A stretch of DNA of 64,000 nucleotides, taken from contig NZ_CP036276.1 in the NCBI RefSeq assembly GCF_007747995.1, positions 5,508,001 through 5,572,000 of the forward strand, written 5' to 3'. Within the stretch, counting starts at the first letter, position 1. Each line of letters starts with the position of its first letter. A program made the translations under genes and the position numbers. Positions 3,733-63,966 of this stretch are shown piece after piece. Source of the DNA: Symmachiella dynata (lineage in GTDB: Bacteria; Planctomycetota; Planctomycetia; Planctomycetales; Planctomycetaceae). The notes beneath the pieces were generated by a model that saw nothing but the letters and a program-made list of their open reading frames with translations, made no database searches and was not told the DNA's origin.

Positions 3733-6700
3733 TCAGTTCTCCGCCGCGATCGCGACGCCACACAAGACCGGTCGTCCTACTCCGGGGGTGAGTGAGATTT
3801 TTAGTTCCTCGGTGATCGCAATCTCTTTGAACTCCTTGACCAAGATCCGCTGCGAGCCGCCCGCTGCTTTTGCGACGTCCAAGTCGGCAAGGAGCTGCTG
3901 ATCCTGCAATGACACATTGAATTGACGATGTCCTGCGGAGGTGTCATTCGGTTCGGCAAAATAGAGACGCACCGTGTAGTTACGGGGTTGCTTGGCACGA
4001 CCGGGGAGTTTAATGGTGATCTCCTCCGCTCCCTCGACTCCCGAAGCGGCGACCCATTTCAGGTCGCTGCCATGGATCCGAGCAGAGTGATTGCGATAGT
4101 AACTCGGATTGTCGCCGGTGACTTTCACTTCAACGTCGGGAGACGTCCCGCCGACACTGGGGTAATCCAACCACATCATGCCGGTCTCATCGACACGGTC
4201 CCCAGGGGCGCCGAAGTTGACCGCAAGTTGCCGTGGCTGGACGTCCGGTTTTTTCAGAGCGCCGTAGGTCCATAAATCGGCATCGGGAACGTGCACCAGC
4301 GCCAGCGATGTGAAAATGGAATACCCACACACACAACCATGCGCCATGTTGGGAGCATTCAACACACCACCGGCCGGGATCAGGCTGTTGCGACACCCGG
4401 AACGAAACCCGGTCAGCCGCGAGGTTGTGCCGGTCTCCACATCACAAAAACCAGCATCCCCTGCGCGAAACGTCAACAAATGTTCGTTGGCAATTGCGTA
4501 ATTGCAATGATGCCCTTTTTTTGTGAACTCCCAGTCAATCTCCTCATCCGTCACCGGATGTTTGCGCTGGATCGACTCGCCGGTTGCGATGTTGTAGGCC
4601 AGTCCTGGACCGCGCTGGTCGATCACTTGATCCTTCCACAAAATCACGCGGTCCCACAGGTTTTCCGGATGGCCGGCAAAGCCTTTCCCTTGAGCATACT
4701 TCCGCCACAGCTCTTTGCCATCCTTGCCGCGATAGGCGATCATCCCCTTGTTGTTGGAGACCATCAGCACGTCGTTCTCCTGGGAATAACTCAGCCAGGT
4801 GGCAATCATGTCGGTCGTGTACCGCCAGAATTCTTTGCCGCTGCGAACATCCATAGCAACGACATCCCGGTCGGGGCCTGCTTCGGGAATTTTTCCGCGG
4901 CGTTTCCAGTCGAGATACAGATCTTGAATCATGCCATCAAAGCAATACAACTTGCCGCCGTTGATGGCGACGAAGGGGAAACTAAACTTGGCTGTTTTCT
5001 TCCAGACGGTCTCCCCGCTATTGCGGTCGATCGCTTGCAACTCGACCGGCAACCGTCCCTTGCCGGGGACTTCGCGAAAGACTTCTGCGATCAACAGATC
5101 CTCATAAACGCGAAACCGGCCCCATTGCCCCTCAGCTTTAGGCAACGTGAATTCTGACATCACTTTGCCGGTGGCGGGGTCGTAACGACGGCAGACCTGC
5201 TCATTGACGAGGTAGATTCCATCTTCCATCGCAACGAAATTGAAGCCGGCTATGACTTCCTCGAAATCATTACCGCGACGACCAGGTTGGATTTCGTCAC
5301 TATCTTTGAGCGGCATTTGCCACAACACACGGCCGGTGTAGATATCGACGGCCGACAATTTATTCGGACCCTGCAAAAACATTCGCCCGCCGATCACGGT
5401 CAAGCTTGGGCCCCAATAGTGGCGGTTATAAAACAAATCTCCGTCCGCCGCCGGTCCGCCAAACCACAATACGCCCAGCGGCGCTTTGACCAGCTTGTCT
5501 TTGGACATCAACGTGTTGGCGGTGTCGCCATATTCGTGTGTCCAATCAGCTGCACCGGGCAACGAACCTTCACGGGAAATCGAGGAGAGATCCCCCACAC
5601 GACGGACTTCGGCGTTCGCTAATCCTAAAGCGGCGACAAAATGCACAAGCATCTCGTGCTCGACATCTGAGGTCGCCAAGTAAGCCGCGCCGCCGTAGGG
5701 TCGAAGGATTTGAAATGTCTTTTGAATCACGCTTGCCGCATCAGAAATATCACCCGACTGCGCATCTTCGGACGTGATCAACGACGCCATGTAGGGCGGC
5801 AATCCGAACTCCAACGGCCGGCCGACATGCGCCGAGACGCGCGTGCCATAGACACCGGCAGCATCCAATTTGCGACGGACGGCATCGATTTTTGCAGCGT
5901 CCTGATCGACGGCAATCACCGGCAACTGCGATTGAAGTAGCAACTCCTCGATCAAACCGCCGTCGGAGACGCCCATGACGAGGGCATACCCAGTATCCGA
6001 CGGTGACGCTTTGAGTAATGCTGCAACCTTTTCCGCAGTGGCGGCATCAGTTGATGCAAGCTCCACACTCTCTGGTTTGTGGTGTCGCGGATCGGTTTTT
6101 TCGGCACCAAAACAATAGAATTTCCCCTCCTGCGTCACAACAAACAATTTGTCAGCAGCCGCGACCATCGACGTCGGTGTTCCCTCAATCGCGGCGGACC
6201 ATGTTTTGTTTGCCGGAGAATTCTCCGTGGGCAAATCGATGGCGAAGACTTGTCCGGCCTGATATCCATACAAACGATTGCCGGCCTTGAGGTGGATCGT
6301 CAGCGGGTTGTCCGCCAACCATTTGGCTGCATCGCCCTCGGCTTTTCCCACAATGTCGGCGTAGGACAATTCCCATTTCTTGGCTAAGGATAACTGTTTG
6401 ACCAGTTTGCCGCGACGGTCTTTGGTCTCTGTGTATTGGGGATCCGCCAAATCCAAGGCAACCACGTTCCCCCCTTGGACACCGTAGACCGTATTATCCG
6501 CCACCACAGGTCGCCGTGCTTCGACAGCTGCTAGGAGTTGATCCTGGACGTGAAAAATCTTCTCGCCATGAAACAACCAGTCACCGGCTGCAATGGCATG
6601 AAAATCAGTCTTGCCGCGGGAATCGTACTTCATCCCAATTGGTTTTCCCGTGCTGAGCGAACGGGCCAGCACCCTCTCACGGCCACAGGGCAAGAACAGT

Positions 6701-7392
6701 CGGTCACCGGCGACGACGGCATAGCCTTGCGGTGCGGAATCCGCGAGCACGGTGCTTGTCAGGTGCGGCTTCTCATCAGTGGCGTCTGCGTTTTGCAGAT
6801 CGAGCGTGTAAAGCATCACTCCTTCAAACGGCCAGACACCGGTTGTGAATTGGATTTTGCCGTCGCTCAAAACCGGTCCGCCCCGCATGGGCCATACCGA
6901 TGTCAACCGGCCATTGCCGATCACCTTGCGATTTGTGGGAGCTGTATCGTGCTGCCAAACGACGGTACCCGTTTCAGCATCGAGGCAATAAAACACACCA
7001 TCATCCGCGCCGAAATACAACCGGCCTTCGGTGAACACCGGGGCGAATCGAATCGGGCCTCCGGCGAAAAATTTCCATTTCTCATCCCCGGTCGATGCCG
7101 CGATCGCCGTCAGCGAATCATTCCGTGCGGAGCCAACATACAGCGTGTCGCCAACCACGATCGGTTCATACCCCGCATCGAATTGCAAACGCGGATCTTC
7201 GGGCCATGCGGGGGCCGAAGGGGGACGTTGGAGTGTCCATTGCAGATGCAACTTTGCCGGGAGTGCATCGGGCGCAGCAGCGCTCCGCTGACTATCGTAC
7301 CGCCATGTCGGCCAATCCCCAGCAACGACCGTTGAGAGGCCGGCCCACAAATACCCCACAAAAAGCAGTCCCGCCAACGTGATCCGCAACAT
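3733..7392 (-). CDS. Exported PQQ-type beta-propeller protein with embedded methyltransferase-like fold and malectin-like tail
   Basis: This is a 1,219-residue protein when started at the ATG ending at 7392, which opens directly with the signal peptide MLRITLAGLLFVGYLWAG; an upstream in-frame start would put 13 residues before it. Residues about 35-450 and 610-1000 carry PQQ/quinoprotein-like propeller blades (for example LTAIAASTGDEKWKF, LSAVDIYTGRVLW). Between them, about 455-605, is a class I methyltransferase-like Rossmann stretch (VMGVSDGGLIEELL, then VIAVDQDAAKID). The last ~150 residues resemble a malectin-like carbohydrate-binding domain (YTVRLYFAEP, RQFNVSLQ). A periplasmic location is inferred. 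Catalysis is not established: propellers of this sort often only bind ligands or proteins, and the methyltransferase fold could be inactive outside the cytoplasm. Confidence 0.85.
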   Translation of the reverse strand: MLRITLAGLLFVGYLWAGLSTVVAGDWPTWRYDSQRSAAAPDALPAKLHLQWTLQRPPSAPAWPEDPRLQFDAGYEPIVVGDTLYVGSARNDSLTAIAASTGDEKWKFFAGGPIRFAPVFTEGRLYFGADDGVFYCLDAETGTVVWQHDTAPTNRKVIGNGRLTSVWPMRGGPVLSDGKIQFTTGVWPFEGVMLYTLDLQNADATDEKPHLTSTVLADSAPQGYAVVAGDRLFLPCGRERVLARSLSTGKPIGMKYDSRGKTDFHAIAAGDWLFHGEKIFHVQDQLLAAVEARRPVVADNTVYGVQGGNVVALDLADPQYTETKDRRGKLVKQLSLAKKWELSYADIVGKAEGDAAKWLADNPLTIHLKAGNRLYGYQAGQVFAIDLPTENSPANKTWSAAIEGTPTSMVAAADKLFVVTQEGKFYCFGAEKTDPRHHKPESVELASTDAATAEKVAALLKASPSDTGYALVMGVSDGGLIEELLLQSQLPVIAVDQDAAKIDAVRRKLDAAGVYGTRVSAHVGRPLEFGLPPYMASLITSEDAQSGDISDAASVIQKTFQILRPYGGAAYLATSDVEHEMLVHFVAALGLANAEVRRVGDLSSISREGSLPGAADWTHEYGDTANTLMSKDKLVKAPLGVLWFGGPAADGDLFYNRHYWGPSLTVIGGRMFLQGPNKLSAVDIYTGRVLWQMPLKDSDEIQPGRRGNDFEEVIAGFNFVAMEDGIYLVNEQVCRRYDPATGKVMSEFTLPKAEGQWGRFRVYEDLLIAEVFREVPGKGRLPVELQAIDRNSGETVWKKTAKFSFPFVAINGGKLYCFDGMIQDLYLDWKRRGKIPEAGPDRDVVAMDVRSGKEFWRYTTDMIATWLSYSQENDVLMVSNNKGMIAYRGKDGKELWRKYAQGKGFAGHPENLWDRVILWKDQVIDQRGPGLAYNIATGESIQRKHPVTDEEIDWEFTKKGHHCNYAIANEHLLTFRAGDAGFCDVETGTTSRLTGFRSGCRNSLIPAGGVLNAPNMAHGCVCGYSIFTSLALVHVPDADLWTYGALKKPDVQPRQLAVNFGAPGDRVDETGMMWLDYPSVGGTSPDVEVKVTGDNPSYYRNHSARIHGSDLKWVAASGVEGAEEITIKLPGRAKQPRNYTVRLYFAEPNDTSAGHRQFNVSLQDQQLLADLDVAKAAGGSQRILVKEFKEIAITEELKISLTPGVGRPVLCGVAIAAEN

Positions 7393-7619
7393 GGCTGTTT
7401 CCCCAATCGTTGTATTGCCAACTCTTACCATTCGGGCGCGAACAAATAACGTCCCACTGCCTCTTCTGATGAGATGCGTCGGACTTAATAACTGTTTGTA
7501 TAATTATCGTACCGGCAACGGACGGCGGATGGCACCGCGCTGCTGAAAAAATATGTGCCAACCACCGGCAATGTGAACGTTAGATGAACTTTCGTTAACA
7601 CGCGCTGGCCCTTCGAAGT

Positions 7620-7802
7620 TCACCCTTTTTCCAGACTGTGCTCAATGGCTTCTAGTCGCGCTGAAATTTGCCGCAGATAGTCAATGATCACCGCATGCGT
7701 GTATTTTGCATCAATACCCACCGGAGAATCCGGGCTACTCAGTTTTTCAATCAGGCTGTCAAAATCAGATTTCGGTTTGGACAATGGATCGGAAGTGTTC
7801 AT
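7620..7802 (-). CDS. Small hypothetical protein, 60 aa
   Basis: This is a short acidic/charged protein that I do not recognise. The middle contains HAVIIDYLRQISARLEAIEHSL, a likely amphipathic or coiled-coil helix suited to oligomerisation. It has an ATG start and runs toward the propeller gene. The protein-like composition and the helix argue for a real gene, but no family or context gives a function. Confidence 0.5.
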   Translation of the reverse strand: MNTSDPLSKPKSDFDSLIEKLSSPDSPVGIDAKYTHAVIIDYLRQISARLEAIEHSLEKG

Positions 7803-8011
7803 TTTTCTGCCTTGTCGTAAGTACCTGTCGGCTGTGGTAAACCCTTGAACTATCGGATTTAGGGGATTGCGACTCGGAATTCAACGGGGACACCCAGCGC
7901 TGCCAAAATGGCGTTGCCAATACCTAGGTCAGCGGGTAACTTTAGTATGGTGTGGGCTGACACGACTAGGAATGCTCCTGGTGATCTTGGACTGAAATAA
8001 GAGGAGCGTCG

Positions 8012-11000
8012 GTGAAGGAACCTCACTCACACGTTGGCTCAGCAGACGATTCATTATTTGATCAGATTGCAGATGAGATCACCGACCGGTTCAGCCGGGG
8101 CGAAACGCTAGACGTTGAAGAATTCGTCACTCGTTATCCGCAATTTGAGGAGGTCATCCGCCAGCTATTTCCGGCATTGGCCGCATTGGCCTCGCCTGAG
8201 TCAACCCAGTTTCGTGACGACGATCATCCTGAATCGACCGAAAAGATCATTGGCGATTTTCGTCTGATCCGCCAAATTGGCCGCGGCGGCATGGGGATCG
8301 TTTACGAGGCTCAACAAATCTCCTTGCAGAGACGGGTGGCACTCAAGATCCTGCCATTTGCAGCGGTCCTCGACCCGCGTCAATTGCAGCGATTCAAAAT
8401 CGAAGCACAGGCCGCCGCTGGACTGCATCATCCGCACATTGTGCCGGTCCATTCTGTCGGAACCGATCGCGGCGTGCACTATTATGCGATGCAATACGTC
8501 GACGGACAAGATTTAGCAACGGTCCTCAAGCAGTTGCGACTCTCCTTGGTCGACGGCCAAATCGCCGAGCTCCCGGCAGTCACACGCGTCAAAAATGCTG
8601 GTTCATCGCAGGAAGCTGCGAAGTGTGAGATGATCCTCGATCCACAGGCCGGTGGAACCTCGTTTGACACGCAGGCGCACGAAGCAGAGACGGCAGCGCG
8701 CGTGGTCGAAACAAATCGCATTCAATGTCACACGACACAATCGCTGGCTGATCGTCACAACCGCTTTCGTACGATCGCTGAGTTGGGCATTCAGGCGGCC
8801 GAGGCATTAGATTATGCACATCAACGGGGAATCATTCATCGCGACATCAAACCGTCGAATCTGTTGATCGACGGAGAGGGAGTGCTTTGGATCACGGATT
8901 TTGGCTTGGCCCAAATGGAATCTGAAGGCAACCTCACCATGACGGGTGACTTCATTGGGACGCTACAATACATGAGTCCCGAACAGGCACTGGGACATCA
9001 CGAATTGGTCGATCAGCGGACCGACATCTATGCACTTGGGGTCACGCTTTATGAATTGCTGACCTGTCAGCCAATGCTCCCCATGGCAGATAAAGCTGTC
9101 ATGCTTAAAAATATTGCTGTGGAAGAACCGCCGCTGCCCAGCAGTTTCGATCGCACGGTTCCAGCTGACTTGGAGACGATCGTCCTCAAAGCAACGGCAA
9201 AAGACCCCGCGGCACGGTATGCTTCAGCAGGAGCGTTGGCCGATGATTTGCGACACTACCTGGAACTACGGCCCATCCTCGCAAAACGGCCGGGGGTTTG
9301 GGATCGATTTGCCAAGTGGTCGCGACGGAATAACACGCTCGTCTCATCCATAGCTGCGATCTTGCTGATGGCAGTAGTTGCGCTTTCCCTCAGCATGTTT
9401 TTTGTGGCCCGTGCCTATCAAGCAGAGTCGAAGCAACGGAAAATTGCCGAGCGGCAATCACGTCGCGCCGACGACAATCTCACGCACGCCCTGAAGGCTG
9501 TCAACGAAATGCTCACCGAGGTCGCCTCGGATGAAATAGTCGACGTTCCACAAATGGCAACCGTCCGGCGGGAGTTATTGCAAAAGGCGGTCAACTTTTT
9601 AGAGCACTTGTCAGCTGCCGAGGGGGACGTCCCAACCGTACATTACGAAACAGCAAGAGCCTACGTGAAAATCACCAACATTCACGAAGCATTGGGCGAA
9701 TTCGAACAAGCTGAGCAGACCGGCAAGCGTGCGATCGCGATGCTCAAAAAGTTGATCGCCGCAAATCCACGAAATGCCGTCTACCGCGACACGCTGACTG
9801 AAGCATATGGATACCTGGGGACATCCTATTTCCAACGTCGGCCGACATATATGGATGATGCACTGGCCACCTGTAAATTGCGGCTGGATGAAACTCAGAG
9901 TCTGGTGGAGGATTTCCCAGGCGAACTTCGATTTCGTCGTCGTTTCGCAGAAGTTAATACCGACATGGGCAATTTCCACTGGGAAGCCCAGCATCAACAT
10001 GAAGCGGAAATCTATCTGCGCAAGGCGGTGCGTATTTGGAACGAGATAAAGTCTGAGTATCCCAACGCCGCCGATGGACCGGACGAAGCGCATTGTCGCC
10101 AATGGTTGGGAACGATGTTGCTGCGCACGTTACACTTTGATGAAGCCGAACTGGAGCTGTTGTTCGCAAATCGTGTCTATGAGCAATTGGTGCAAGACCA
10201 ACCCAATAACACGGATATCCGCGGGCGACTCGCCCAGAATCGGTCCTATTTGGGGCAGCTTTATTTTCGACAAGGGGACTACAACCGCTCCGGTGAATTT
10301 CGGCGAAAAGCGACTCAATTGCGGGAATTGCTCGCCGAGGAATTCCCCAACGTTTACGAGCATAAGCGTCGCTTGGCGATCTGCTATGAAAATCTGATTT
10401 TAACGCTTGGAAGAGAACAGAAGTTTGATGAAGCCCGCGTGCAAATGGAAAAACAGCGAATATTGCGCCGGGATATTTCGATACGCTTTCCGCAACTCCC
10501 TGGAAAACCAGGGGGAATCGGCTGGGGACCCTGTGACTTGGCGACAATGATGTATGACACAGGCCATATCGATCTTGCGCGGCAATATTTTTCTCAAGCC
10601 TTGCAAGACTTTGAAACGGACGTGGAACATTTCCCACAACATTTTAAAGCACAACATTGGCTGTCGTGGTTACTCGTAAGATGTCCGATCAGCGAACTTC
10701 GTGATCCGCACAAAGCGCTTCCGCTTGCAAAACAAGCCACCCTGACGAGGCCTGACGATGGCGATGCCATGTGCGTGTTGGGCGTGGCGGAATATCGCTG
10801 TGGCCAGGTTGAACAAGCCGTCACCACATTGAATCGAGCGATCGAACTATCTAATAACGACGCCGCGGTCGTCGCCCAATACGTACTCGCCATGATCGAC
10901 TGGGAACAAGATCGTCGCGACGAAGCGGTTCGCCGGTTCTCTGAGACTGCAACTCTCAAGTCCGCGGCGCTAGAGCACGATCCGACTCTGAAGTGGATGC

Positions 11001-57164: not shown

Positions 57165-58514
57165 ATGTCCGCCATCGACAAAACGGTTTGCCGTGTCCCC
57201 CGTTCCATGGAGCTTTACGCCCGCGCCGAGCAACTGATCCCCGGTGCCACGCAGTTGATCAGCCGGAGGCCATCACGGGCCGCCATGGGCGTTTCGCCCG
57301 CGTTTGCGACTCACGCCAAAGGGGCCAGATTTTGGGATGTCGATGGGCACGAATACATCGATTGGGTCAGCGGGATCGGCGCCATCATCCTTGGCTACTG
57401 CGATCCGGTTGTCGACGCGGCTGTCTGCAAACAAATTGAATCCGGCTTGAACTACTCGATCAACCATGAATTGGAAATCGAACTGGCCGAAGAACTAGTC
57501 GCCACGATTCCTTGTGCCGAGATGGTCCGTTATGCCAAAGGGGGTGGCGATGCGTGTGCCATCGCCGTTCGCATCGCGCGGGGGGCTACCGGGCGGGAAA
57601 AGATCCTGTTTTGTGGATATCACGGTTGGCACGATTGGTATCTAGCGGCCAATCTTTCGGCCGATGCCACATTGGATGCACATCTGTTTCCCGGCATCGA
57701 ACCAATTGGTGTGCCCCAATCACTGGCCGGAACCGCCATCCCCTTTGAATATGGCAACGCCGAGTCGTTGCAATCGCTCCTGGAGAAACACGCCGGGGAG
57801 GTTGCTGCAGTGATTATGGAGCCACTTCGCAGCGAGGAACCACCGGACGGTTATTTGCAACAAGTCCGTTCGCTCACCCAGCAACACGATACCGTATTGA
57901 TCTTCGACGAGGTCTCCACAGGTTTTCGTTTAAGCGCCGGCGGTGTGCAACCGTATCTAGGCATCGAACCCGACATGGCCGTTTTTGCCAAATCGATTTC
58001 CAACGGTTACCCGATGGGAGCTGTCGTTGGCAGCCGCGCCGTGATGGAACCGGCAGCACAAATGTTCATTTCCAGCACCTACTGGAGCGACCTGATTGGC
58101 ATTCGTGCTGCTCTGACCACCTTGCGAGAGATCCGCCGTCGGGGCGTCCCCGAGTACCTACAGAATCTCGGCCGTACGATTATCTCGCGAATGAACGAAG
58201 TCGCTGACGAGACCGGTTTGCCTGTCCGTTGCGGCGGGATTTCGGTCCATCCCTATCTGCAGTTCGACGTCGACGATCCCACGATCGCTCGGCAACTCTC
58301 CACGCTCTATGTGCAGGAAATGGCCAAACGGGGCTGCCACGGGTTCCCTTCTTTTTATCTCAATGCCGCTCAAGGGACCCCGGAACTCGACCAAACCACG
58401 GCGGCCGCCCGCGAAACGTTTGCGCTCCTCAAACAGGGGCTCGATGCGGGCCAGCTCGACGGACTCCTCGAAGCCGATCTGACGCAGGACGTCTTTCGCC
58501 GCATCGTCCGCTGA
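57165..58514 (+). CDS. Class III aminotransferase, glutamate-1-semialdehyde-aminomutase-like
   Basis: This is a 449-residue PLP enzyme. FWDVDGHEYIDWVSGIGAIILGY is the family N-terminal core, MVRYAKGGGDACAIAVRIAR and GYHGWHDWY are PLP-phosphate and substrate motifs, and LIFDEVSTGFRL contains the cofactor aspartate. The Schiff-base lysine is K276 in AVFAKSISNGYPMGAVVG. The GSAM signature MVRFANSGTEA appears as MVRYAKGGGDA, a clear deviation. Thus it may be a sugar or amino-sugar aminotransferase and not hemL. It follows ftsH by 172 bp. Confidence 0.87.
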   Translation: MSAIDKTVCRVPRSMELYARAEQLIPGATQLISRRPSRAAMGVSPAFATHAKGARFWDVDGHEYIDWVSGIGAIILGYCDPVVDAAVCKQIESGLNYSINHELEIELAEELVATIPCAEMVRYAKGGGDACAIAVRIARGATGREKILFCGYHGWHDWYLAANLSADATLDAHLFPGIEPIGVPQSLAGTAIPFEYGNAESLQSLLEKHAGEVAAVIMEPLRSEEPPDGYLQQVRSLTQQHDTVLIFDEVSTGFRLSAGGVQPYLGIEPDMAVFAKSISNGYPMGAVVGSRAVMEPAAQMFISSTYWSDLIGIRAALTTLREIRRRGVPEYLQNLGRTIISRMNEVADETGLPVRCGGISVHPYLQFDVDDPTIARQLSTLYVQEMAKRGCHGFPSFYLNAAQGTPELDQTTAAARETFALLKQGLDAGQLDGLLEADLTQDVFRRIVR

Positions 58515-58980
58515 CGGTTCGTCCAACATGAATATCCCGCCCAGCAGTGACTGAAGGTCATCACGACCGACCTGTCACCGACGCTTTGCTGCGGTCGATG
58601 GTATCGATTGCCACGCCTACGGGTGTCATGTCCGCTATTTGCAACATTGCTTGTCATGTTGCCCGCACGCATCACCGTTGTTCGCGAACCACCGCACCGC
58701 GTTGCTTAAACACATCGTGGTCTTGCATCCCGTGTTGCCTTGCATCAGCGCTGCTTGAGGTAGGTTGCACGCGCGACAAGTCTTACCGCAAAAGCAGCCA
58801 GCGCAGGCAGCTTCTCTTTGACACGCCGCGGTTTGTGACACAAGTTTTTAATGGCGGTTCGCTTTCTCGAATGCCATTCGAAACAGAGTTGGTCGAACAT
58901 TAATCGGCATCCTTCTGGCGGTGGCTTCGAGGATTGCAGACCGTTGATACCACAGATTTGCCGCGGGCTGCTGCATTCGT
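58515..58980. other. 466-bp region upstream of the riboswitch, no gene seen
   Basis: Short open frames here lack protein-like composition. A perfect -35-like TTGACA at 58818-58823 is followed 17-18 bp later by a poor -10 (CAAGTT region), a weak candidate start for the riboswitch transcript. Confidence 0.45.
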
Positions 58981-59075
58981 CCAGAGCCTTCGACAAAGGC
59001 AAACTCGTCGCGAGACGAGGACGCAAAGCCATGGGTCTCGTTCGAGAGATTGCCAGGCTACCGAAGAGGTCAATT
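58981..59075 (+). ncRNA. Cyclic-di-GMP-I (GEMM) riboswitch aptamer
   Basis: The order and wording match the GEMM-I aptamer. An AAAGGCAAAC block (58996-59004) is followed by a 6-bp hairpin CTCGTC/GACGAG closed by a GCGA (GNRA) tetraloop (59004-59019). Next come GGACGCAAAGCC (59019-59030), a third hairpin (TCTC/GAGA, 59036-59047) and GGCTACCGA (59056-59064). P1 can form from CCTTCG (58987-58992) and CGAAGAGG (59062-59069). The base aligned with G20 of the Vibrio Vc2 RNA is G58999, expected for c-di-GMP rather than cGAMP binding. The start codon of the next gene lies 40 bp downstream. Confidence 0.88.
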
Positions 59076-59114
59076 CATTTCTGAATAGCGTTTTACGTTT
59101 CTGGGATTGCAGCC

Positions 59115-62100
59115 ATGCTGTTTCGAGATCGTTCGAAATCAAATACGAAACTTGCCGCCGAAGCCTCTTCACTTCTCGCGCGGCTCGTCGGTCACGCCAT
59201 CCCCAGAACTCCGCGCCGCCTCCCCACGCTCAACAAGCTTCGACTGGGTTTTCAAACTTTGGAACCCCGTCTCGTCATGTCCAGCAGCCTCGATCTGAAT
59301 GGCGGCATGCACACCGATGATGATGCAACGGACCATTCCGCTGGATGCGGCTGTGGTTGCTGCGCCGGTGGCCATCTGCATGGACTCGACCCCATCGAAA
59401 CGACCACAACCCCCGACGAATCAGGGGATGGTGAACAATATCCCTTGGCCAGTTTGCCGTTGCTCTCCAGCAACCCCACGGCTTCGGTGAAATTGTATTT
59501 GGATTTTGATGGACATTTTGAATCGCAATGGGGCGCTTACAGCAACATCACTTCGCCGGCATTCAGCATTGATGGCGATTACAGCAGCTTTAGCACGGCT
59601 GAAATCGATGCGATTACCGAAATCTGGCAGCGTGTCTCTGAAGACTATGCGCCGTTTAACATTGATGTCACCACCGTCGAACCTGACAGCTTCGCCAACG
59701 GCGAAGCAATGCGTGTGGTAATCGGCGGCAATAGCAGTTGGTATGGCGGGACCGTTGGCGGATTGGGTTACATCAACTCCTTTACCGATTCGATCGTGAA
59801 CACCGTCTATGTCTTTCCGGACCACCTTGCCAAAAACGCCCGGTACATCGGCGAAGCGGCTTCCCACGAAGCGGGGCATGGTTTTGGACTCAGGCATCAA
59901 AGTGCGTACAACGGCAGTGGCACGAAAACCCATGAATACAATCCCGGCGGCAATGGCTGGGCGCCGATCATGGGGTCGTCGTACTACCAAACCCGCAGCA
60001 CGTGGAGCGACGGCACGACGTACTCGGCCAATGCTTATCAAGACGACATGGCAGTCATCGCCCGCGCCGCCAACGGGTTTGGCTACCGCACGGACGACCA
60101 TGGCGGGTTGGACTCCGCAACGACGCTTTCCTTCACCGGCAATACTGCGTCGTCCTCGGGTATCGTCGAGAAAATGAGCGATCAAGATGCTTTCTCCTTC
60201 ACAGCAGCCGCGGGGCAATTGACCCTGGAATTGAACGTCGCTGAAGTGGGAGCCAACCTCGATAGTGTTCTCGAATTGCGAACCCAGGCGGGAGACCTAA
60301 TTGCAACCGCTGACCCGTCCAATGATTTTGGCGCAACCATCTCGACGACTGTCGACGGTGGGAATTACGTGTTGGTCGTGCGCAGCACCGGCGAATACGG
60401 CTCGGTGGGACAATACACCATCTCCGCCACACGTGCCGAACAGACCACCGAGATTGCCATCTCTGGGGAATCGTCCGTCATCGAAGACGAGACCTTTACC
60501 CTACAGCTTGAAGAAGTTGTTGAAGGCGCATCACCGATTCAAAGCTGGACAATCAACTGGGGCGACGGAACGATTCAGGTCGTGGCTGGGAACTCTGATT
60601 CTGTCACACACGCTTATACCACCGGTACAGGCCAGTTCACGATTCAAGTGACGGCGACCGATGGCGAAGAGACGTTCGAGGCCGACAACCACGTTGTCAA
60701 TGTCATCGATCCTGTTCCAGTGCTAGCGACATCGGGAGCGACCTACGTCGTCGAAGGAAACTCCTTCCAACTGGGACTTTCGGCCGCGGGTGATGGGGCA
60801 GACTCCATCACACACTGGACCATCAATTGGGGCGACGGCACGGTCCAAGTGGTTTCCGGAAACCCGAACAGCGTATCCCACGTTTACACCGACGGCACGA
60901 CGGTCGTGATGATTCAAGCCTCTGCGACGAATTCCTATGGGACCTATGCCGCTGCTTCTAAAAGTATCACCGTTCAGAATGCAGCCGCCACGCTGGAGAT
61001 TTCAGGAAGCAACACCACGCAAGGCGGCAGCACATACACACTTGGTCTGTTCTCGACAGATTCCGGGAATGACACAATCTCGCATTGGACCATCAACTGG
61101 GGGGACGGCACGATCGAGCAGATCAACGGCGACCCCTCGACAGCCACTCACTCCTATGCCAACAGCGACGGACAATTCACGATTTCAGCCACAGCGACGG
61201 ACGAGGACGGGACCTATTCGGCCAATAACTTGATCGTCGAGGTCGTCGAAGAGACCAATCCCCCATTGAATTTCAATAGTTACAGCGTCAATAGTTATAG
61301 CCAAGGGCAAGACATTGCAGGGAACGCATCAGTCGGCGACGGCGGCTCGACGTTGCAATTGACAGGTAATGTTTGGAAACGCATTAACTACGACTATACG
61401 ATCACCGTTGACACCGTACTGGAATTGGAATTCAGTAGTCTCAGGGCATCGGAGATTTCAGCAATTGGTTTTGACACGGACCTGCACCACGACCAACACC
61501 GCGCGTTTCAACTCGCCGGGACCGACTCATGGGGATTGCAGGATTTTCGCGTTCCCAACACCAACGACTCCGAAATGGTACGGATCGTCATTCCCATCGG
61601 CCAGTTTTATACCGGAGACGTTCGATACCTCTTCTTCATTAATGACGAGGACGTTTCCAATCCGAATTCGGTCAGCACCTTTTCTAACGTGCGGGTCTAT
61701 GAGTCGATGAGGGCTCACGATGACGTGTTTGCGGCCGACGAGGCGGATGGTTCCGTCACTCTCGACGTCCTCGCCAACGACAGCAAAACCACCGGAGTCT
61801 CAGACCCCTTAGAAATTATCTCTGTCAGCCAAGGCTCGGCAGGCGGGACCATCGTCATCGCCAATGGCGGGACGAATCTCCTCTATACTCCGGCCGCGGG
61901 ATTTTACGGCACGGAGACGTTTACCTACACCATGACCGACGGAATGCCCAACAGTGAGTCTACGGGGAAAGTGACTGTCGTGGTTGAGGCAGCCACTTCG
62001 CTCAGTGGCGAGGGTGAAGCTACCGTCGGCGAAAATTACGTGTTACGACTCGACACCCGCGATGGATTGGCCGTGTCCAATTGGACGGTCGATTGGGGTG

Positions 62101-63041
62101 ACGGCACGGTTCAGAATATCGCTGGCAATCCCACATATCTGACGCACACTTACCAGAACAGCGGCCGGCAACATACGATCACAGCAACGGCGGCAAACGG
62201 CGGCACGCAATATGGCTCGGTGTCACACAGCGTCGATGTCGAAGTCGTAGAAGTCAACTTCGACCAACGCCCCATTCGTTCGTACGCTGGGAATCAAGAC
62301 GCCAAGGGCGATGCTTCGGTAGAAAAAGACGGAAACGCAGTCCGCCTGGACGGAAACGTCTGGAAACGTATCAGCATGCCGATGACGATCACCAGCGAAA
62401 CGGTGTTGGAATTCGACTTGCGGATCCTGCGTGAAGGAGAAATTCACGGCATCGGATTTGACAACGATTGGTACCACAGCTCTGCACGTACGTTCCAGCT
62501 ACGTGGAACCGATACCTGGGGACGACAAGATTTTCGCACGTCCTCGAACACCAATGGCACCGTGCACTACGTCATCCCCATCGGGGAATTCTACCAGGGA
62601 TACGTGAAGTATCTGTTCTTCGTCAATGATGAAGATGTTTCCAGACCCCGCTCAGAAGTCGTCTTTTCCAACATCCGCGTTTACGAACATGGGCCTGCAC
62701 CGCAGGAACCTGCCGAGAGCGCCGCGCCGGGAGCGAGCCCGCAACTGGTCGCTGCCGATCCTCTTATTCCCCCGTCAAACGGTCTCGCTGCAATCCTCGC
62801 GGAAGTCGACGAGCAATTGATGCAGGTAGAAAACTATGGCCAAGCGACTGCTGCGGAATTCACAAAACCTGTCTCAGTCTCCACGCTAACTCATTCAATG
62901 AATCAGCAGTCATTTTCGACGTTCGAATCATGGCCCGTATCACAGAGTTCTCTCGGTAGCTCTTTGCTCTCATCTTCCATCGCGGATGAGCTGGCAGCGA
63001 ACGAACTATTTTTCGCTCTATACGATGGGATGCTGGATTGA
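59115..63041 (+). CDS. Large secreted metzincin-like protease with LEPR motif, PPC, four PKD domains and two jelly-roll-like repeats
   Basis: This is a 1,308-residue exoprotein. L49-E-P-R-L-V-M is the planctomycete LEPR sorting motif. A Cys/His cluster (about 74-89, CGCGCC then GGHLHG) follows. Residues 125-320 hold a metalloprotease core with H251-E-A-G-H-G-F-G-L-R-H261 and the Met-turn I285-M286-G, the metzincin pattern. A PPC-type beta domain spans about 326-440. PKD domains with W-x-I-N-W-G-D-G-T lie at about 445-530, 535-620, 625-712 and 965-1045. Two related beta-rich repeats (about 719-864 and 1048-1192, sharing GNVWKRI and GTDxWGxQDF) flank a cadherin-like Ig domain (868-958). It is expected outside the cell. 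A c-di-GMP riboswitch lies in its leader. Confidence 0.9.
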   Translation: MLFRDRSKSNTKLAAEASSLLARLVGHAIPRTPRRLPTLNKLRLGFQTLEPRLVMSSSLDLNGGMHTDDDATDHSAGCGCGCCAGGHLHGLDPIETTTTPDESGDGEQYPLASLPLLSSNPTASVKLYLDFDGHFESQWGAYSNITSPAFSIDGDYSSFSTAEIDAITEIWQRVSEDYAPFNIDVTTVEPDSFANGEAMRVVIGGNSSWYGGTVGGLGYINSFTDSIVNTVYVFPDHLAKNARYIGEAASHEAGHGFGLRHQSAYNGSGTKTHEYNPGGNGWAPIMGSSYYQTRSTWSDGTTYSANAYQDDMAVIARAANGFGYRTDDHGGLDSATTLSFTGNTASSSGIVEKMSDQDAFSFTAAAGQLTLELNVAEVGANLDSVLELRTQAGDLIATADPSNDFGATISTTVDGGNYVLVVRSTGEYGSVGQYTISATRAEQTTEIAISGESSVIEDETFTLQLEEVVEGASPIQSWTINWGDGTIQVVAGNSDSVTHAYTTGTGQFTIQVTATDGEETFEADNHVVNVIDPVPVLATSGATYVVEGNSFQLGLSAAGDGADSITHWTINWGDGTVQVVSGNPNSVSHVYTDGTTVVMIQASATNSYGTYAAASKSITVQNAAATLEISGSNTTQGGSTYTLGLFSTDSGNDTISHWTINWGDGTIEQINGDPSTATHSYANSDGQFTISATATDEDGTYSANNLIVEVVEETNPPLNFNSYSVNSYSQGQDIAGNASVGDGGSTLQLTGNVWKRINYDYTITVDTVLELEFSSLRASEISAIGFDTDLHHDQHRAFQLAGTDSWGLQDFRVPNTNDSEMVRIVIPIGQFYTGDVRYLFFINDEDVSNPNSVSTFSNVRVYESMRAHDDVFAADEADGSVTLDVLANDSKTTGVSDPLEIISVSQGSAGGTIVIANGGTNLLYTPAAGFYGTETFTYTMTDGMPNSESTGKVTVVVEAATSLSGEGEATVGENYVLRLDTRDGLAVSNWTVDWGDGTVQNIAGNPTYLTHTYQNSGRQHTITATAANGGTQYGSVSHSVDVEVVEVNFDQRPIRSYAGNQDAKGDASVEKDGNAVRLDGNVWKRISMPMTITSETVLEFDLRILREGEIHGIGFDNDWYHSSARTFQLRGTDTWGRQDFRTSSNTNGTVHYVIPIGEFYQGYVKYLFFVNDEDVSRPRSEVVFSNIRVYEHGPAPQEPAESAAPGASPQLVAADPLIPPSNGLAAILAEVDEQLMQVENYGQATAAEFTKPVSVSTLTHSMNQQSFSTFESWPVSQSSLGSSLLSSSIADELAANELFFALYDGMLD

Positions 63042-63171: not shown

Positions 63172-63966
63172 CTACGCGGCTTTGCGAGTTTTTCGGCGAC
63201 GCCAGCCGTAGCCGACAAGCCCCATCGCTCCGATTCCCAGCAAGACAAAACTGGAAGGTTCGGGAACCACTCCAGGAGCCCCTGATGGCTTTTCGGTGCC
63301 GTAGATCGTGACCCAATCCCAGCCCCGCCCGTCGGTGGTTTTGGAATAGTCATCGTATTGCTGCAATCGAAACGTCACCGTCGACAGCGAACCGTTGCCA
63401 CCAGCTAGGTTTAAAGCTTGGGCGATCGCGGCATCGACGGAACTGATTTCAACGCCATACCAATTCGAGTTACTCTCACCGGCGCTCGGCGTCCAAATCG
63501 GCACAAAGTTCTCACCATCAACACTCACGGCCACGCCGTCCGCATTCGAGTGATCGACAAACGGATTCAGTTGCCCAGCATTTTGGTCGCCGCTCCCGCC
63601 CACTCGATCTTCGTCTACTGCGAATCCGTGAACTTCGTCGTTATAGGATCGGTGGTTAAACGTAACACGAATATTTTCCCAATCCTCCAGGTTTAAGACG
63701 AGATCCGCTTCATTGAGGTTGTATCTGCCATTGGCATCCACATCCATCAACAACCCGCCACCATAGAGCCTGACTCGGCCGTCATTTGTACTGGAGTTGG
63801 TCGTAAACGGGGCAATCGAGTCCCCGCTCGTCGGACCGGTGTACAGCTCCCCCATTCCATGTCCGATAAAATTATCCATGAATAACATGGACTCGGCGTG
63901 AGCAACGGATGAACTAGCGATGACCGCCAATGCCCCGACTGCCAAAACTCTTGTAAACCCCATCAT
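63172..63966 (-). CDS. PEP-CTERM-anchored exported protein
   Basis: This is a 264-residue protein. A signal peptide (VLAVGALAVIASSSVAHA) leads to a beta-rich secreted domain of unknown type (for example RLYGGGLLMDVDANGRYNLNE). The C-terminus is a PEP-CTERM sorting signal: V-P-E-P-S-S-F, a hydrophobic helix GIGAMGLVGYGW and a basic RRRKTRK tail. This is processed by exosortase (not in the window) and often accompanies exopolysaccharide production. A GGGAGAG ribosome binding site precedes the ATG. It is convergent with the riboswitch-controlled protease and shares its terminator. Confidence 0.9.
   Translation of the reverse strand: MMGFTRVLAVGALAVIASSSVAHAESMLFMDNFIGHGMGELYTGPTSGDSIAPFTTNSSTNDGRVRLYGGGLLMDVDANGRYNLNEADLVLNLEDWENIRVTFNHRSYNDEVHGFAVDEDRVGGSGDQNAGQLNPFVDHSNADGVAVSVDGENFVPIWTPSAGESNSNWYGVEISSVDAAIAQALNLAGGNGSLSTVTFRLQQYDDYSKTTDGRGWDWVTIYGTEKPSGAPGVVPEPSSFVLLGIGAMGLVGYGWRRRKTRKAA

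Follow-up and report, generated by a model that had tools for sequence, protein, structure and literature searches.

Control of an extracellular metalloprotease by cyclic diguanylate (c-di-GMP) through a riboswitch is already known, and the case described here differs from it in protein family, platform, and phylum. According to the accessible portions of two reports on Clostridioides difficile (PMC6366702, PMC11477304), the gene for the zinc metalloprotease ZmpI/PPEP-1 (CD2830) carries a class I riboswitch and is negatively regulated by c-di-GMP, and the adhesins released by PPEP-1 are encoded by genes with class II riboswitches; the class I switches of this organism are described as transcriptional OFF switches (PMC11477304). 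For the class I riboswitches Vc1 and Vc2 of Vibrio cholerae, the available excerpts of PMC4744006 give G20, A47, and C92 as the ligand contacts of Vc2, place the transcript start of Vc1 at or close to the aptamer, report no apparent terminator or anti-Shine-Dalgarno (anti-SD) sequence between Vc1 and its gene, and call the mechanism of both unclear or unknown. A sequester/anti-sequester control of translation initiation by class I riboswitches has been described in general terms (PMC11218506, in part). Here, we analyzed a class I aptamer and the giant metzincin-type protein encoded downstream of it in the planctomycete Symmachiella dynata. Both lie in a stretch of 64,000 nucleotides (nt) (contig NZ_CP036276.1, positions 5,508,001 to 5,572,000), hereafter the window, within which positions are counted unless stated otherwise.

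An Rfam cmscan of the 64-kb window at gathering cut-offs listed a single match, RF03167 (c-di-GMP-I-GGC), after one overlapping same-clan match of lower score had been dropped. An earlier reading of the letters alone (the original prediction) had named a c-di-GMP-I riboswitch and proposed RF01051 as the check; that model scores 70.4 bits on the same aptamer (58989-59066), above its gathering cut-off of 35, so the call stands, with the refinement that the GGC variant is the best model. The four motifs named in that reading are all present, and the features of the class, a GNRA-capped P2 and a closable P1 helix (CUUCG/CGAAG), were found. Judged by its sequence, the window RNA is almost certainly a c-di-GMP-I aptamer. 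The distance from the end of the Rfam match (59066) to the ATG (59115) is 48 nt and not the 40 bp given earlier. The features of the leader, all on the + strand, are as follows.

58970-58986, +, 5' clamp arm (putative anti-SD) assigned by duplex energy: GCUGCA at 58970-58975, UC at 58977-58978, and CCAGAG at 58981-58986
58988-58992, +, P1 5' strand CUUCG, which can pair with CGAAG at 59062-59066; read from the sequence
58989-59066, +, c-di-GMP-I aptamer; RF03167, 74.9 bits (cut-off 59), E 6.4e-16, full length
59004-59019, +, P2 hairpin CUCGUC-GCGA-GACGAG with a GNRA loop; Rfam alignment and sequence
59073-59086, +, small linker hairpin AUUCA-UUUC-UGAAU in the predicted fold
59099-59113, +, 3' clamp arm, complement of the 5' arm: UUCUGG at 59099-59104, GA at 59105-59106, and UGCAGC at 59108-59113
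59115-63041, +, open reading frame (ORF) of the metzincin-type protein, 1,308 amino acids (aa), ATG start

We propose that the expression platform is split around the aptamer. The upstream arm (58970-58986) would pair with the SD/start region (59099-59113), the aptamer would thus be nested inside an anti-SD:SD clamp, and the RNA at 58989-59066 would in this way control translation of the metzincin gene (59115-63041). Binding of c-di-GMP would stabilize P1, keep the two arms paired, and prevent initiation; a fall in c-di-GMP would let translation begin and the protease be made, possibly with a role in the release or remodeling of surface structures. As a whole, this nested clamp, a translational platform by which c-di-GMP would turn the gene OFF, is our best explanation, and we give it somewhat better than even chances. 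Translational control via the clamp, considered by itself, is likely. The earlier reading had suggested translational control from the lack of a terminator between aptamer and start. A search of 58500-59300 agreed, as no terminator was found on the + strand and the one terminator-like site on the - strand is no more than shuffles give, and the upstream anti-SD arm adds positive evidence for this type of control.

The 45 nt upstream of the family aptamers are complementary to the SD region of the downstream gene, as seen across 32 loci from 15 genera. For this analysis, duplex energies were computed between these 45 nt and the 20 nt before the start codon. From the 43 RF03167 matches of the family, we dropped those with a start more than 60 nt from the aptamer (L046, L049, L050, L059, L061, and L063) and those scoring below 40 bits (L078-L082, with L080 also lacking a start). 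Start codons were picked by a script that favors ATG and SD-like runs, and own and swapped pairs have their targets in common. For L041, L051, and L064, we placed the start manually by reference to homologs, having already seen the leaders, and the start placed in this way in L064 counted against the clamp hypothesis (-8.7 kcal/mol). The own arm:SD pairs had a mean of -15.74 kcal/mol, compared with -12.28 kcal/mol for arms swapped between genera (standard deviation 0.46; best of 2,000, -13.78), and a control 45-nt window 50 nt further upstream gave a mean of -11.65 kcal/mol over the 32 loci. When one locus was taken per genus (15 genera), the means were -15.10 for own and -12.10 for deranged pairs; without the genus of the window (14 genera), they were -14.76 and -11.92, and in both cases 0 of 3,000 derangements were as good. 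Shifting the upstream window 15 nt away reduced the arm signal to -12.4, and beyond that it lay between -11.0 and -11.7. On the target side, the peak of -16.3 was reached where the 20-nt window ends at the start codon (27 of the 32 loci are long enough), and a target window at +20 gave -10.5 kcal/mol.

In the window itself, the arm:SD duplex has -18.9 kcal/mol (shuffle p 0.04, swap p 0.08), and the 3' arm takes in an SD-like stretch, with 1 nt left between the arm and the ATG. The leader therefore holds an anti-SD able to occlude the SD and no terminator, with marginal support when the window is taken alone. Three loci of the genus form stronger duplexes (L047, -26.1; L048, -24.8; L040, -21.2). 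Five closely related loci from three genomes share an almost unchanged upstream arm but differ in the linker that separates aptamer and SD; the L040 counterpart of the linker hairpin reads CUCA-UUUC-UGAG. Most of the 5' arm had been missed in the original prediction, which began the element at 58981.

Several points weigh against the nested clamp. The idea arose from reading the leaders of the same 43 loci in which it was later tested; idea and test thus share leaders. Targets 40 to 100 nt past the start still give -12.3 to -13.0 kcal/mol, so some of the arm:SD energy is background. Only 10 of the 32 loci individually reach p<=0.05 against dinucleotide shuffles, and the own far-upstream window is beaten in 26 of the 32. 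Taken alone, the clamp statistic of the window is marginal; the sister orthologue L043 (-17.2, p 0.156) is not significant, and L052 of the same genus (-12.9, p 0.651) does no better than shuffles. Moreover, a promoter scan found no sigma-70-like promoter, and the arm may not always be transcribed.

The clamp was also not replicated outside the family, in 23 loci (5 from family f34, 3 from f2, and 15 from f46). This set began with 28 loci (L115-L142), from which L115 (wrong strand) and L127 and L139 (locus cut short) were dropped; the statistics cover 23 of the remaining 25, with L121 (f65) and L132 (f38) left out. In most of these leaders, no start was found within 60 nt, and the target for the upstream 45 nt was therefore the 80-nt stretch that follows the aptamer instead of an SD region. 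Own and shuffled means were -12.9 and -12.5 for f46, -29.7 and -30.6 for f2, and -36.4 and -31.6 for f34, and p<=0.05 was reached by 2 of 5 f34, 0 of 3 f2, and 2 of 15 f46 loci.

With regard to direction, the clamp arms and the aptamer of the window do not overlap, and a closed aptamer and the clamp can therefore coexist, one nested in the other. It follows that closing of the aptamer should favor the clamp, giving OFF at high c-di-GMP, a direction that we consider fairly probable. OFF is also predicted for three loci of genus g19 (L062, L068, and L071), which encode giant S8 subtilases with the start codon 11 nt past the aptamer, since their SD-like GAAAGG overlaps the P1 3' strand. In folding models of the 32 loci, in silico removal of the arm raised the unpaired fraction of the SD from 0.34 to 0.42. 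Replacing the aptamer by an inert hairpin increased arm:SD pairing in 15 of 15 genus means and lowered SD exposure per genus from 0.38 to 0.30 (p 0.018). The rise in pairing with a closed aptamer is partly built in, because the model removes competing partners, and this again speaks against the proposal, as does the behavior of the window RNA: its clamp forms with or without a closed aptamer (SD unpaired 0.15 and 0.16; 0.19 under aptamer constraints), so the models do not show ligand dependence in the window. Nor did we find a convincing apo-state competitor of the clamp. A self-hairpin of the upstream arm was tried in this role and rejected, as 124 of 500 shuffles fold as well in the window and 94 to 425 of 500 over the seven loci tried.

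The picture in the original prediction, a link from sessile-state signaling to extracellular remodeling, would correspond to the opposite direction, an ON switch in which c-di-GMP frees the SD. Class I riboswitches of both directions do exist, since Vc1 promotes gbpA (PMC4744006) and the C. difficile class I switches are OFF, according to the parts of these reports available (PMC11477304). ON is also predicted in the planctomycete family f46, where 6 of 15 loci (L119, L120, L126, L131, L133, and L135) have a terminator-like stem and T run formed from the aptamer's own 3' strand, which suggests transcriptional ON switches there. However, the window leader has no terminator, and since the clamp arms lie outside the aptamer, no competition between ligand binding and the clamp would arise. 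We therefore regard an ON switch in the window as unlikely, and production of the protease in the sessile, high c-di-GMP state is not supported as stated, because the nested clamp predicts OFF under that condition. As a separate observation on f46, several of its genomes hold at least 11 aptamers each, 11 being the number of candidates scored in a genome, partly in tandem (e.g., G376:C1:2195099 and 2195216).

It is also conceivable, and in our estimate improbable, that the aptamer is real and acts through Rho-dependent termination or RNA decay, with the flanking complementarity serving as a stabilizing extension of P1. Such control would agree with the window models, in which SD exposure is not ligand dependent, but the complementarity over the 32 loci peaks at the SD/start region.

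The ligand pocket was read against the contacts reported for Vc2, using a numbering ruler that is one letter off near position 92. At the equivalents of positions 20 and 47, the window aptamer has G and A, respectively; C92 was placed by eye on an ACCG motif, and its assignment is therefore less certain. In the RF03167 consensus, GACGC is followed by G at the position-47 equivalent (GACGCGAA), which we take to be the defining letter of the variant, just as "GGC" in its name presumably stands for positions 20/47/92. The window has A there (GACGCAAA) and thus departs from the GGC consensus. When the 43 family aptamers were read by pattern, 39 had G at the position-20 equivalent (the others being L066 and L071 with A and L068 and L077 with C) and 41 had A at the position-47 equivalent, or 42 once L061, a misplaced pattern match that holds GACGCAAAGCC, is corrected; the other exception, L080, is a weak match (28.7 bits). 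By its letters, the window pocket therefore looks canonical even though the GGC model scores best. The genome encodes 7 GGDEF and 2 EAL matches (one partial), so c-di-GMP is presumably made, and we infer that the window aptamer binds it. A GGC-type variant that recognizes something else is very improbable: RF03167 beats RF01051 (74.9 vs 70.4 bits) and has a consensus G where canonical RNAs have A47, but A occurs there in the window and, with the misplaced match corrected, in all but one family match, G predominates at position 20, and GGDEF proteins are present. With respect to the two family aptamers with A at the position-20 equivalent (L066 and L071), their ligand preference may differ, because binding of cyclic GMP-AMP is possible for a class I riboswitch with the G20A mutation (PMC7288161).

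RF03167 occurs at E<=1e-3 in 35 of 150 genomes of the family (19 over the cut-off), 37 of 170 genomes of the order (20 over the cut-off), and 135 of 392 genomes of a phylum sample (81 over the cut-off). To survey gene context, the genes downstream of the 43 family matches were read, with Pfam applied to part of them. Tad or TadE domains lie downstream, within ~2.2 kb, in 25 of the 43 loci, often in the second gene after a ~240-aa ORF, and a Flp pilin in one, which brings Tad/Flp pilus genes to 26 of 43. Pilin-like proteins follow in five loci (L046 by Pfam, the other four by a common N-terminal motif), metzincins in six, all in the genus of the window, S8 subtilases in three, all in g19, and an RTX/beta-helix giant in one; the L064 locus stops at a contig end, and L080 has no clear gene. 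Five of the six metzincin loci were tested with Pfam, and Reprolysin models exceeded the cut-off in L052 only; L040 was recognized by its zinc motif. Although 17 of the 43 matches score below the RF03167 cut-off, they mostly precede such genes too. As judged from their sequences, the subtilases are a second protease class, unrelated to the metzincins, under the same aptamer. L042 and L051 (G050:C390) hold near-identical aptamers at a distance of 2.4 kb; the gene after one of them encodes a 240-aa protein and is followed by a Tad gene, and the other precedes an 80-aa Flp-type pilin.

Collectively, we tentatively suggest, at slightly less than even chances, that the family aptamer sits inside an anti-SD:SD clamp with gene-matched arms and governs a set of surface genes for Tad/Flp pili and pilin-like proteins, that it was recruited separately in two genera by unrelated giant proteases (metzincin and subtilase), and that translation of pilus components and proteases is set free when c-di-GMP is low.

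The genome of the window (7.77 Mb, one contig) has two RF03167 matches, each upstream of a metzincin, and only these two metzincins carry the aptamer. The second aptamer, at genome position 5217770, is followed by a 1,707-aa metzincin paralogue with 11 PKD_4 stretches. Across three genomes of the genus, there are 2, 2, and 3 aptamers, and one precedes each of the 6 close metzincins, of which every genome has two, with 56-100% identity to the query across the part matched. The surrounding DNA of 20 metzincin homologues outside the genus (L086-L105) gave 0 Rfam matches at gathering cut-offs, which suggests recruitment within the genus of the window; the flanks scanned extended up to 1.5 kb, shorter at contig ends and ~300 nt upstream for L103, and L106-L112 and further homologue matches were left out. 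A contig of one genome (L054, G002:C43) has, in order, an aptamer, TadE, a TadG-like gene with a VWA domain, TadE, a second aptamer, and a metzincin, i.e., two riboswitches within one pilus-protease neighborhood. Tad genes were also sought near the aptamers of the window's own genome, where all 7 TadE matches were more than 300 kb away from both; within the genus, it is therefore the G002 contig that ties the aptamer to pilus genes.

The protein downstream of the aptamer agrees with the earlier description in its length of 1,308 residues and its metzincin/PKD character. Its further features are listed here.

59865-59897, +, zinc motif HEAGHGFGLRH (residues 251-261), followed by an IMG Met-turn
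60456-60683, +, PKD_4 domain (residues 448-523), the better of two stretches; Pfam
61257-61706, +, repeat module copy 1, 54% identical to copy 2; sequence comparison
61713-61979, +, Big_9/cadherin-like domain (residues 867-955); Pfam
62259-62699, +, repeat module copy 2, all-beta in a model with a predicted local distance difference test score (pLDDT) of 65

Both the HExxHxxGxxH motif and the Met-turn that mark metzincin metallopeptidases were found. In an alignment of 32 of 33 catalytic stretches, including that of the window and leaving out L111, there is no variation at the three His, the Glu, or the Met of the Met-turn, and the second Gly of the motif is conserved in at least 90%. The model of the catalytic part (pLDDT 83.9) gave metzincins as its top Foldseek matches in the PDB, three of them at E<=0.001, with the adamalysin-type 2ero best (E 5.8e-4) and serralysins ranking below. 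In these respects, the protein resembles adamalysin/serralysin-type metzincins; it departs from them in the low TM-scores by query (0.21-0.42 among the 50 matches listed) and in Reprolysin_3, which scores below the Pfam cut-off. A PDB sequence search with the catalytic part returned a cellulase as the best match (E 0.033) and venom metalloproteinases from 0.08. The Pfam matches over the cut-off are PKD_4 (two stretches), Big_9, and Cadherin_5, which overlaps Big_9. The protein had also been called a LEPR-motif protease: the letters LEPR do occur at residues 49-52, ahead of the zinc motif, and an NCBIfam scan of the protein returned no LEPR family. The carbohydrate-type domains had a similarly mixed outcome, as a Pfam scan gave no match for the two ~148-aa repeats, while the low-confidence model of one of them has CBM30 as its best Foldseek match (E 6e-4), and copy 2 is possibly carbohydrate-binding-like. 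The sequence suggests that the protein may be exported. The metzincin tails are alike, with ELFFALY in the window (63003-63038), ELFFAEYG in L047 and L048, and YLFADYG in L052, and this shared tail is possibly a sorting signal. The convergent neighbor in the window (63172-63966, -) carries a PEP-CTERM sorting motif. In addition, L038, from a cyanobacterial metagenome-assembled genome (Symploca), combines metzincin-like and S8 subtilase domains in one frame (6001-9000).

If the proposal holds, planctomycetes would have a way to couple c-di-GMP to surface pili and proteases directly, with no protein in between, and class I riboswitches without an anti-SD between aptamer and gene should be inspected upstream of the aptamer. 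In the literature searched, which covered few subscription papers, we found no description of a split clamp platform around a c-di-GMP-I aptamer and nothing about this arrangement in work on c-di-GMP riboswitches, Tad pili, and planctomycetes, judged largely by the titles and abstract openings of the papers listed; "c-di-GMP-I-GGC" occurred there only as a model or template name. The aptamer class is an ordinary one; the nested translational platform is probably unusual, and so is the planctomycete regulon. RF03167 matches the aptamer at full length and above the cut-off as the best-scoring model, and the window differs from its consensus G by the A at position 47. With Vc1 and Vc2, it shares the class I aptamer and the G20/A47 contact letters. 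Vc1 precedes gbpA, a secreted colonization factor (PMC4744006, in the excerpts available), and unlike in Vc1, the anti-SD of the window sits upstream of the aptamer; because the transcript of Vc1 starts at or close to its aptamer, the nested platform is not simply transferable to it. The general sequestration scheme, in the part of PMC11218506 that was accessible, names no arm upstream of the aptamer, in which the window differs. A close parallel is found in C. difficile (PMC6366702, PMC11477304), where the c-di-GMP riboswitch regulon also includes adhesins and type IV pili. Unlike the class I leaders of that organism, the window leader has no terminator and appears to use a nested SD clamp instead, and whereas PPEP-1 is a Pro-Pro endopeptidase, the window protein is a giant metzincin type with PKD/Ig-like domains. 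As with zmpI/PPEP-1, whose product acts at the cell surface, a class I c-di-GMP riboswitch precedes a zinc metalloprotease; the recruitment of a surface protease would thus parallel PPEP-1, and by analogy, so would the OFF direction that we infer for the window protease.

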